Assembly (NCBI GenBank): GCA_016842005.1
Contig: JAENYD010000014.1
Span: forward strand, 1-64,000
Direction: 5' to 3'
DNA length: 64,000 bases
DNA from: Clostridium thermobutyricum
Lineage (GTDB): Bacteria > Bacillota > Clostridia > Ch29
Numbering within the stretch: the first letter of the stretch is position 1; the number at the start of each line of letters is the position of its first letter. Under the pieces are notes generated by a model. It had not been told where the DNA came from. It made no database searches and saw nothing but the letters and a program-made list of their open reading frames with translations. The translations under genes and the position numbers were made by a program. Below, piece after piece: positions 9,136 to 64,000 of this stretch.

Positions 9136-9158
9136 GAGCATGCAAAGGATATATTATC

Positions 9159-9211
9159 ATATGGGAGAAGGGACAGGCTGTGCCGCGTACAGCCTGTCCC
9201 TTCTCCCATAT
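9159..9211. terminator. Bidirectional terminator with 23-bp perfect stem
   Basis: Bases 9159-9181 and 9189-9211 are perfect inverted repeats (ATATGGGAGAAGGGACAGGC at the left start) around loop GCCGCGT. It separates the convergent ytxC and znuB genes; a T run (TTTTTT) follows on the plus strand. Confidence 0.9.
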
Positions 9212-9220
9212 TACATTTTT

Positions 9221-10075
9221 TCAGGATGGGAGACAGTGGTCTGAAGGGTCCGGGGTCTTCCTGAAAGCGGGTAACATAATTTTCCGGAACGCCGCTGAAA
9301 CGAAATAACCGGTTGTTGACAGCAGGGCTATGGCTGCTCCGGAGGGCAGGTTAAACCGGTAGGAAAGGAATAAACCGGTGAGACAGAGCGCCATACCCAG
9401 AAAAACGGATACAAGCATTATTCTTTTCAGGTCATAGGTAAAGAGCCTGGCTATGGATGCCGGAACCGTCAGGAGGGTCATGACCAGTATTATACCTACC
9501 ACCTTTATTATCACAATTATGGTTAAGGCAATCAGAACGAAAAGGAAGTATTCAAGATAAACGGTTCCTATGCCCTGTATGGCGGCAAATTCTTCATCAA
9601 ACATATAAGCCTTCCAGTAATTGAACAAAGAGATGACAGCGACCAGTATAACGGTGTCCAGAACCAGTATCAGTTTTATGTATGTTCTGGAAACAGTTAG
9701 AATATCACCAAACAAATACGAGGTCATGTCAGGGGGATAACCCGGTGTCAATGCAATAAACAGAATACCCAGGGCCATTCCGGCGGACCAGAACATACCC
9801 ACCAGGGCATCCGGAGGGGTGCGGGTTTTCCGGTTGACGGCGGATATTCCCAGGGATGCCAGAACAGCTATGACAAGCCCCCCGAATATGGGTTCAATAT
9901 TAAAATAATAGCCCATGCCTATACCGCCAAAGGAAATATGGGCTATACCGCCGCTCATCATAACCAGTTTTTTTTCGATTATAATGGTGCCTATGATACC
10001 GCATACAATGCTTGCCAGTAATGCGCCTGCTACGGCATTCTGAAGGAAGGTATACTGAAAAAGGGCCTTTATCAT
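9221..10075 (-). CDS. znuB: Zinc/manganese ABC transporter permease
   Basis: A 284-residue integral membrane protein of the ABC-3 family with about eight hydrophobic segments, typical blocks MMSGGIAHISFGGIGMGYY and FAAIQGIGTVYLEY, and a late GIILVMTLLTVPASIARL. It forms the membrane channel for divalent metal import with the ATPase znuC. The ATG overlaps the znuC stop by four bases (ATGA) and is preceded by AAGGAGAG, so translation is coupled. Zinc rather than manganese is suggested by the adjacent Fur/Zur gene and is not proven. Confidence 0.88.
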   Translation of the reverse strand: MIKALFQYTFLQNAVAGALLASIVCGIIGTIIIEKKLVMMSGGIAHISFGGIGMGYYFNIEPIFGGLVIAVLASLGISAVNRKTRTPPDALVGMFWSAGMALGILFIALTPGYPPDMTSYLFGDILTVSRTYIKLILVLDTVILVAVISLFNYWKAYMFDEEFAAIQGIGTVYLEYFLFVLIALTIIVIIKVVGIILVMTLLTVPASIARLFTYDLKRIMLVSVFLGMALCLTGLFLSYRFNLPSGAAIALLSTTGYFVSAAFRKIMLPAFRKTPDPSDHCLPS

Positions 10076-13244: not shown

Positions 13245-13490
13245 GAAACAGGATATAAAGGCTGTGAAGGGAAGAGTAGAGGGCAAGAGGCCTTAAGAGA
13301 GAAGATGCCGCAGGCTGGAAGCATCTTCAGGTGCTCGCCTTTGAAGACCGTCCCGGAGCCGTGTGTGTTAGAAGCATTGCCGGTGGCACCGTTACAGCCA
13401 CAATGAGTGGGTATTCATCAATGAGGGTGGAACCGCGGGAATAACCTCCCGTCCCTTTGCCGTTGCTGGGGGCGGGAGGCTTTTGATTTT
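13245..13490 (+). promoter_or_regulatory. T-box riboswitch (threonine) ahead of thrS
   Basis: The leader contains the antiterminator T-box AGGGTGGAACCGCGGG (13424-13439) followed by a terminator stem CCTCCCG/CGGGAGG (13445-13451 with 13473-13479) and TTTTGATTTTTT. In stem I the segment TTTGAAG-ACC-GTCCCGGAGC places ACC (13347-13349), a threonine codon, in the specifier position; the pheS leader at 39.6 kb has the same context with TTC. Uncharged tRNA-Thr should bind and switch thrS on. Confidence 0.95.
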
Positions 13491-15543: not shown

Positions 15544-15745
15544 GATAAGCGGTTTATCCGATGGCTACCGCCGCTAATACTCCCGTCCTGTCAGCGGCCA
15601 GGGGACACACCTGCTGAAGCTCCGGTATTCTTTTGTGGACAGGAATGTTCCCAACTAAAGATAAGCGGCGTTACGCCCATGGATAGCGGTTTCTAAGCTT
15701 CGGATGGGGTTATAAAACCCCACCTGAAGCCAGGAATCCTGTTTG
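15544..15745 (+). repeat. Structured dispersed repeat, copy A (candidate non-coding RNA)
   Basis: A roughly 200-base segment almost repeated at 63731-63947. Shared blocks include ATACTCCCGTC, TGTCAGCGG, CAGGGGACACACCTGCTGAAG, AAGATAAGCGGCG, TTCTAAGCTT and ACCCCACCTGAAGC. Possible helices: GATAA/TTATC at the 5' end, TCAG..CAGG/CCTG.CTGA, ATTCTT/AGGAAT, GGCG/CGCC and GCTTC...GGGGTT/AACCCC...GAAGC. The strand is not known; the plus orientation is used for description only. It lies between thrS and the TSUP gene and holds no convincing reading frame. The rest of 15746-15898 is AT-rich with no motif. Confidence 0.7.
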
Positions 15746-15898
15746 ATTTTGATGTGCGTGTGTCATCTGAACTCTGAAGGATAGGAAGATAATCCCGATT
15801 GAATGAAGTTTTTTCCTTTATCAGAGTTCCACAACAGGTTATAATTCTATATATTTATAATATTCGAATAATATATTTGAGTACTGGAGGATAGACAT

Positions 15899-39490: not shown

Positions 39491-39511
39491 TAAGAAGTTA
39501 TATATACGTTG

Positions 39512-39757
39512 TTAACGCGATGATGAAGGAAAGTAGACAGGTTTCTGTTGACAGAGAGGGAGTGTCACCGGCTGCAAGCATTCCTGAGCATGAGCCTTTT
39601 GAAGTTCCCTTCTGAGCGGTAGGACTGAATTCGTAAGGATAGTAGGTTTTAACGTCTGGCAAGCGTTATTTTGCTTTAACGAGGCCGCTGCAACGCTGCG
39701 GCGAATTAGGGTGGTACCACGGAGTACAGTCTTCGTCCTTTGGACGGGGATTTTTTT
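39512..39757 (+). promoter_or_regulatory. T-box riboswitch (phenylalanine) ahead of pheST
   Basis: T-box AGGGTGGTACCACGG at 39708-39722, terminator stem CTTCGTCC/GGACGGGG with loop TTT (39731-39749) and a T run. In stem I the context TTTGAAG-TTC-CCTTCTGAGC puts TTC (39605-39607), a phenylalanine codon, in the specifier position, parallel to ACC in the thrS leader. Confidence 0.95.
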
Positions 39758-63730: not shown

Positions 63731-63947
63731 GAATAAAAAATTTATTCGATGGTTACTGCTACTGATACTCCCGTCTTGTCAGCGGTCAGGGGACACACCT
63801 GCTGAAGTTCCGGTATTCCTTCTCTGTGGGCAGGAATGTCCCCATCGGAATGTCCCGGCTGAAGATAAGCGGCGCTACGCCCCTGGATAACGGATTCTAA
63901 GCTTTAGATGGAGTTAAAACCCCACCTGAAGCTTGGGATCCTGTTTG
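63731..63947 (+). repeat. Structured dispersed repeat, copy B (candidate non-coding RNA)
   Basis: The second copy of the element at 15544-15745. It is longer by about 15 bases because GGAATGTCCC is duplicated near 63834-63860. The 5' hairpin reads GAATAAA/TTTATTC (63731-63737 with 63741-63747) where copy A has GATAA/TTATC, so pairing is kept while bases differ. ATTCCT/AGGAAT replaces the weaker ATTCTT/AGGAAT. The rest of 63687-64000 is AT-rich with runs of TGTTTCAT and TGAAAC near the window end and no gene. Confidence 0.7.
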
Positions 63948-64000
63948 CGCCTGATGTTTCATATGAACCTTGAAACAATCAATGAAACATAATATGAAAC

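Follow-up and report, generated by a model that had tools for sequence, protein, structure and literature searches.

The question raised by this locus is whether a sequence of about 200 nt, found in two unrelated intergenic regions of the 64,000-nt stretch of Clostridium thermobutyricum DNA analyzed here (contig JAENYD010000014.1; hereafter the window), represents a novel class of non-coding RNA, as considered in the original prediction, or a repeat of another kind. The repeat itself is real. As predicted, the two segments share long blocks, matching at 88% over 81 nt, 84% over 67 nt and 84% over 43 nt in pairwise comparison, and both were recovered by a covariance model trained without either of them (E-values of 2.5e-23 and 7.3e-21). 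Model R1 scored 110 bits for positions 15553-15746 and 99 bits for 63741-63948. The first copy had been delimited at 15544-15745, which located the element correctly but missed its exact limits: same-orientation alignment of copies from the same genome revealed sharp edges, TTTATCC on the left and CCTG-TTTAT on the right, with unrelated flanks beyond. In the window copies, the right edge reads TTTGA (copy 1) and TTTGC (copy 2) in place of TTTAT.

The whole-genome and Clostridia searches proposed at the outset showed that these are members of a large family. More than 50 further copies are present in the C. thermobutyricum genome, and of 391 Clostridia genomes scanned with a covariance model of the basic copies, 30, spread over many families, contained the repeat; it occurs in other Firmicutes as well. 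A pattern scan of named genomes found matches in Clostridium ljungdahlii, C. ragsdalei, C. carboxidivorans, Haloimpatiens, Desulfosporosinus, Sporomusa, Thermincola and Syntrophomonas, among others. Copy numbers exceed 50-100 per genome, with 103 matches in one complete 3.1-Mb genome (G336). The family-specific pattern had no match in viral contigs, and no earlier description of this repeat family was found in the literature searched.

Many copies measure only about 133 nt and do not have the central 60-70 nt carried by the window copies. This basic unit consists of a first hairpin, H1 (TTATCC-GA-...-CT-GGATAA), a linker GGATAA-N, also written GGATAAC(G), a second hairpin, H2 (GGTTTCTAAGCTTCAG...CTGAAGCCAAGAATCC), and a terminal pentamer T[T/G/A]AT. 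H1 and H2 are imperfect, subterminal hairpins, one at each end and on the same strand, as seen in both folds and pair counts. Folding of the basic unit gives z-scores of about -9 (RNA) and -8.6 (DNA); L104 from G178, the most regular of the copies, forms two near-perfect hairpins with a DNA z-score of -17. The element, of about 130-200 nt, contains no open reading frame and has no coding capacity; inverted ends were not seen either, in agreement with what had been noted from the sequence.

Copy 1 can be read against this plan, all its features lying on the plus strand. Its left junction is the target pentamer TTTAT at 15553-15557, a flanking C_L-like site that corresponds to the conserved left limit of the copies and to the single TTTAT of empty sites. 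Pentamer excluded and extra loop module included, the copy spans 15558-15746, according to the alignment of own-genome copies and the R1 match. H1 occupies 15554-15686, its TTATCC..GA.. arm pairing with a ..CT..GGATAG arm and the module lying in the loop (RNA and DNA folds; pair counts over 28 copies). The central linker, proposed to be the guide, is GGATAGCG at 15681-15688 (family consensus GGATAACG), followed by H2, GGTTTCTAAGCTTCGG...CCTGAAGCCAGGAATCC, at 15688-15739, which is supported by the folds and by the pair counts (helix 3, with 91% of cells paired). The right terminal pentamer TTTGA, a C_R-like end that is TTTAT, TTGAT or TTAAT in the right-end tables of the family, lies at 15742-15746. 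Copy 2, also on the plus strand, has its left TTTAT at 63741-63745 and extends over 63746-63948, as indicated by alignment, fold and the R1 match; its H1 arms are degenerate and the family H1 fold is lost, and its loop module carries a duplicated ATCGGAATGTCCC block. Its linker, GGATAACG, is found at 63885-63892, H2 at 63892-63941 (from the fold), and the right pentamer TTTGC, located by sequence, alignment and right-end table, at 63944-63948.

The loop module (CAGGGGACACACCTGCTGAAG...GGAATGTCCCC) is found within the H1 loop of one subfamily and is missing from the basic element; stand-alone copies exist in G002 and in the C. thermobutyricum genome. The window copies are therefore composites. 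Their conserved GGGGACACACC block represents a REP-like module in its own right, located in the H1 loop. In copy 1, the module (GGGGACACACC...GGAATGT(C/T)CCC) lies at 15597-15653 on the plus strand. The form GGGGACACACC...GGAATGTCCCC was observed at 15597-15653 and 63785-63870 of the window and in L097 and L098, alone or inside the H1 loop, often with tandem repeats of ATCGGAATGTCCCC. It resembles the GGGGAC-type repeats adjoining the three RAYT-like Y1 genes of C. thermobutyricum, and may possibly be tied to RAYT-like Y1 genes with such repeats in their flanks. In G001 (L112 1501-1690; L096), the H1 loop carries a different module at this place, TGCACTGGTATTTCTACGCATTGCAAAAGACTCAATGCTAGAACTACTGGCGTAA, which measures about 60 nt. 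Some copies of C. ragsdalei, C. ljungdahlii and G209 have a related mini-element (CCTAAAGGATAACG...CTGTTAAT), about 50 nt long, nested in their H2 (L282 5643-5825; L298 7174-7306; L293 1912-2045; L191 2202-2336). Elsewhere in the window, a long hairpin at 9148-9222, with 34-nt arms that are 85% complementary and containing GGGAGAAGGGACAGGCTGT, is perhaps another REP-type repeat. The window also holds two T-box leaders (Rfam RF00230), one at 13255-13459, upstream of a threonyl-tRNA synthetase gene, and one at 39511-39743, as well as six clustered minus-strand tRNA genes (373-884).

We then focused our attention on how copies come to occupy their sites. Comparison of several pairs of filled and empty sites showed that insertion takes place exactly 3' of a single TTTAT pentamer, which is afterwards present on both sides. 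A filled site in C. ljungdahlii (L327) reads TCTTATCT-TTTAT-[element]-TTTAT-AGTTTTTC, and its empty counterpart in C. ragsdalei (L286) reads TCTTATCT-TTTAT-AGTTTTTC; a single TTTAT was likewise found in the empty site of further pairs (L286 versus L277, L318 versus L296). In G248, two copies lie inside a comM-like gene adjoining a Y1 gene; the first of these sites is unoccupied in G071, and removal of 123 nt restores the comM reading. Among 255 copies selected by regular expression, a left TTTAT was combined with a right TTTAT in 113, with TTGAT in 20 and with TTAAT in 11, from which it follows that the right pentamer belongs to the element. Such systematic differences, for instance a right TTGAT beside a left TTTAT, rule out a target duplication, in line with the original reading that none was present. 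Moreover, head-to-tail tandem copies have one TTTAT common to both. As to strand, IS608 targets the lagging-strand template; with the origin assumed at coordinate 0, orientation agreed with replication for 48 of 91 copies in G336 and for 12 of 17 in G248.

We next compared the linker between the hairpins with the right end. Of 53 genome-level combinations, 50 have a base N after GGATAA that is complementary to the base preceding the right pentamer, against a permuted mean of 25; three pair types are represented (C-G, 32; G-C, 13; T-A, 5). Shared ancestry inflates this count, yet it does not create three matched types, and both C-G and G-C types coexist within single genomes, C. carboxidivorans and G317 among others. 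The arrangement at the right end, where the proposed guide 5' of the hairpin foot would pair with the right cleavage site, follows the IS608 rule, in which the guide 5' of each hairpin foot pairs with the cleavage sites and the target (PMC5934647). At the left end, no guide pairing with the target was found 5' of the left hairpin foot: H1 starts at the target itself, and the sole complementary stretch is the ATAA 3' of H1, in the central linker. The natural series of guides and ends (AAC-GTT, AAG-CTT, AAT-ATT) offers a ready test of guide-directed cleavage.

The proposal of an RNA rested on compensatory changes, which we evaluated at the level of the family and of the host genome. Over 28 copies of the family, 18 pairs and 45 cells were changed on both sides, as compared to 9.1 and 14.5 in shuffles, counts that are inflated by the presence of related sequences; 90% of cells pair, versus at most 48% with partners slid. 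The stem substitutions counted in 21 copies from the host genome comprised 71 broken, 42 one-sided and 5 two-sided changes, against 75.5, 40.2 and 3.0 under random placement. Stem pairs are thus broken at the neutral rate, which indicates that the copies are not kept as RNAs. Because compensatory changes are seen between lineages, selection acts on the transposing lineage, where the hairpins are needed, rather than preserving every copy as an RNA. The structured, dispersed element with compensation that had been proposed does exist, but at the level of the family only. The two specific changes that had been invoked between the window copies do not hold up as covariation. The 5' hairpin (GATAA/TTATC versus GAATAAA/TTTATTC) pairs DNA outside the element with the terminal TTTAT, and does so at chance level: stems of at least 5 bp were present in 3 of 49 copies, with 1.9 expected in shuffled flanks and 149 of 500 shuffles reaching that number. 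In the internal stem, the change of ATTCTT to ATTCCT leaves AGGAAT unchanged and is one-sided (G-U to G-C), in a module absent from the basic element.

A functional structured non-coding RNA of a new class, whose dispersal would be incidental, would agree with the strong folding, the family-wide compensatory changes and the intergenic location. Nevertheless, we regard it as very unlikely, given the precise insertion at TTTAT, the empty sites, the 50-100 or more copies per genome, the insertions within genes, the neutral stem breakage in individual copies and the lack of H1 in window copy 2. Moreover, the same covariation is expected from a hairpin needed as single-stranded DNA. As for known RNA classes, the suggested comparison with Rfam 15 gave no significant match at either gathering or permissive thresholds. 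Empty and filled sites, the TTTAT target, tandems, high copy number and neutral decay point instead to a mobile DNA element. This removes a false non-coding RNA candidate, and carries the warning that covariation among dispersed copies can arise from single-stranded DNA transposition and not from RNA function.

We consider it likely that the repeat is a transposase-free mobile DNA element working like a miniature IS200/IS605 (single-strand, HUH/Y1) element. In such a mechanism, the single-stranded DNA of the element would fold into two adjacent hairpins, and the linker GGATAA-N between them would serve as guide. At the left end, ATAA would pair with the target's TTAT; at the right end, the base after ATAA would pair with the one immediately preceding the pentamer, and the cleavage points would be set in this way. 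A HUH-type transposase acting in trans would cut the element out and insert it again 3' of a TTTAT, the target being single-stranded and not duplicated in the process. Inserted copies then mutate without constraint. The excised junction predicted for C. ljungdahlii and C. ragsdalei is ...CTG-TTTAT-CCGATGAC....

In search of an autonomous parent, Y1 (PF01797) and TnpB (PF07282) were sought in the C. thermobutyricum genome and in 22 element-bearing genomes, and Y1 also in eight named genomes. None with these ends was found among the Y1/TnpB loci examined, where R1 and end-specific BLAST gave isolated or stray copies only; as none of these ends was seen to enclose a transposase gene, the element is non-autonomous and PATE-like. 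Furthermore, the assemblies of G371 and G059, both with many copies, contain no intact Y1 gene. These two observations, together with the apparent absence of strand bias in G336 and the different left-end design, count against the IS200/IS605-like reading. A short Y1 protein (about 185-240 amino acids, the PF01797 match ending at position 119) is encoded in several many-copy genomes, for instance at L386 5983-6573 in Haloimpatiens and at L191 1577-2164 in G209; a Y1 protein of G336 is encoded at L194 1047-1895. The short protein was weighed as the mobilizer and set aside, its neighborhood being too inconsistent: in G209, G248 and Haloimpatiens, elements adjoin its gene or lie within the locus, but most genomes lack such an arrangement, with a copy nearby in only 3 of about 11 such genes, at varying positions and orientations. 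Separately, a short Y1 (IS200-like) gene adjoins comM (and dprA) in several clostridia (L193 1499-3501; L386 4817-6573; L194 1047-3397), and in G248 it continues in frame into comM sequence, that comM copy being the one that holds two mobile elements.

The same data bear on the other ways in which the repeat could have spread. Spread as a REP-like element by a domesticated single-copy Y1 transposase (RAYT/TnpA_REP), and not by an IS200 transposase, is conceivable though unlikely. The short Y1 protein and the elements at its locus speak for it, as do the high copy number and the missing autonomous copy, which are REP-like. However, chance contributes to the 3 neighborhoods in about 11 because several of the genomes concerned have many copies, a GTAG/GGAG-type foot is absent from the element, a TTTAT pentamer serves as target, the unit consists of two hairpins, and the element is absent from the three RAYT-like loci of its own genome, which are flanked by other, GGGGAC-type repeats. 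Movement by a rolling-circle HUH enzyme (IS91/Helitron-like) or some unknown system seems rather improbable to us: it would accommodate the head-to-tail tandems, a hairpin near the 3' end, the absence of a Y1 gene in G371 and G059 and the apparent lack of strand bias, but a Y1 system predicts both the covariation between guide and cleavage site and the presence of a fixed pentamer at either end, and tandems are also explicable by insertion into a right-end TTTAT. An RNA carried by a lost transposon had been another suggestion, which comes close in spirit given the missing transposase and the IS200/IS605-like ends, but no link to TnpB was found. A remnant of a guide RNA (omega-RNA-like) for TnpB, IscB or a similar nuclease is most improbable. 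TTTAT and TTGAT do resemble target motifs of TnpB-bearing IS605 elements; nevertheless, TnpB loci in element-bearing genomes do not have such ends, the inspected TnpB elements of G282 end differently, the TnpB trace in the C. thermobutyricum genome is a weak zinc-ribbon only, and Rfam gave no match.

A more novel but doubtful reading is that the elements, each of two hairpins, form a Firmicutes-wide mobile family with one linker guiding both ends (ATAA for the target, the base after it for the right end) and with a mobilizer that is, in some hosts at least, not a recognizable Y1 transposase. If true, this would be a minimal element whose choice of target is specified by one internal guide of DNA or RNA. 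The IS200/IS605-like reading itself would explain a repeat family of C. ljungdahlii, C. carboxidivorans, Haloimpatiens, Desulfosporosinus, Sporomusa and others, and turns the missing mobilizing enzyme into a definable question.

Overall, the repeat can be placed among known systems by its behavior. Like IS200/IS605 elements (PMC5934647), it inserts 3' of a fixed short sequence kept on the left, without target duplication, and has end hairpins and, next to the foot of the right one, a proposed guide complementary to the right end; in IS608, the sequence kept in the left flank is a tetranucleotide, TTAC, and the target of ISDra2 is TTGAT (PMC5934647). Unlike them, it has no tnpA or tnpB, its left guide is not 5' of the left hairpin, its covarying right-end base lies just outside the terminal pentamer, and its copies in G336 show no apparent strand bias (48/91, for an origin assumed at coordinate 0). 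Because of the left guide position and the lack of an own or resident transposase, we call it a variant working like IS200/IS605. With classical MITEs it shares small size, non-autonomy and lack of coding capacity, but, in contrast to these DDE-type elements, it has neither terminal inverted repeats nor target duplication. REP, REPIN and BIME sequences with their RAYTs (PMC2817692, PMC3116915, PMC6006769) are also short, palindromic, high-copy repeats, probably mobilized in trans by Y1 proteins; however, they measure 20-65 nt and have a GTAG-type foot beside one RAYT, whereas the present unit is of about 130 nt, with a TTTAT target and no consistent RAYT neighbor. The PATEs of Haloquadratum walsbyi (PMC3119063) are likewise transposase-free and devoid of inverted terminal repeats, with near-terminal palindromes, a short oligonucleotide at the end that is identical to the targeting sequence, empty sites specific to particular strains and frequent hits by other small repeats. 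They differ in sharing their palindromes with resident IS605-type transposons, a parent of which no counterpart was found here at Y1/TnpB loci, and the present unit is shorter, with two abutting hairpins and one common linker, and occurs in Firmicutes. In its behavior, the repeat is IS200/IS605-like, with the Haloquadratum PATEs (PMC3119063) as its nearest known counterparts.
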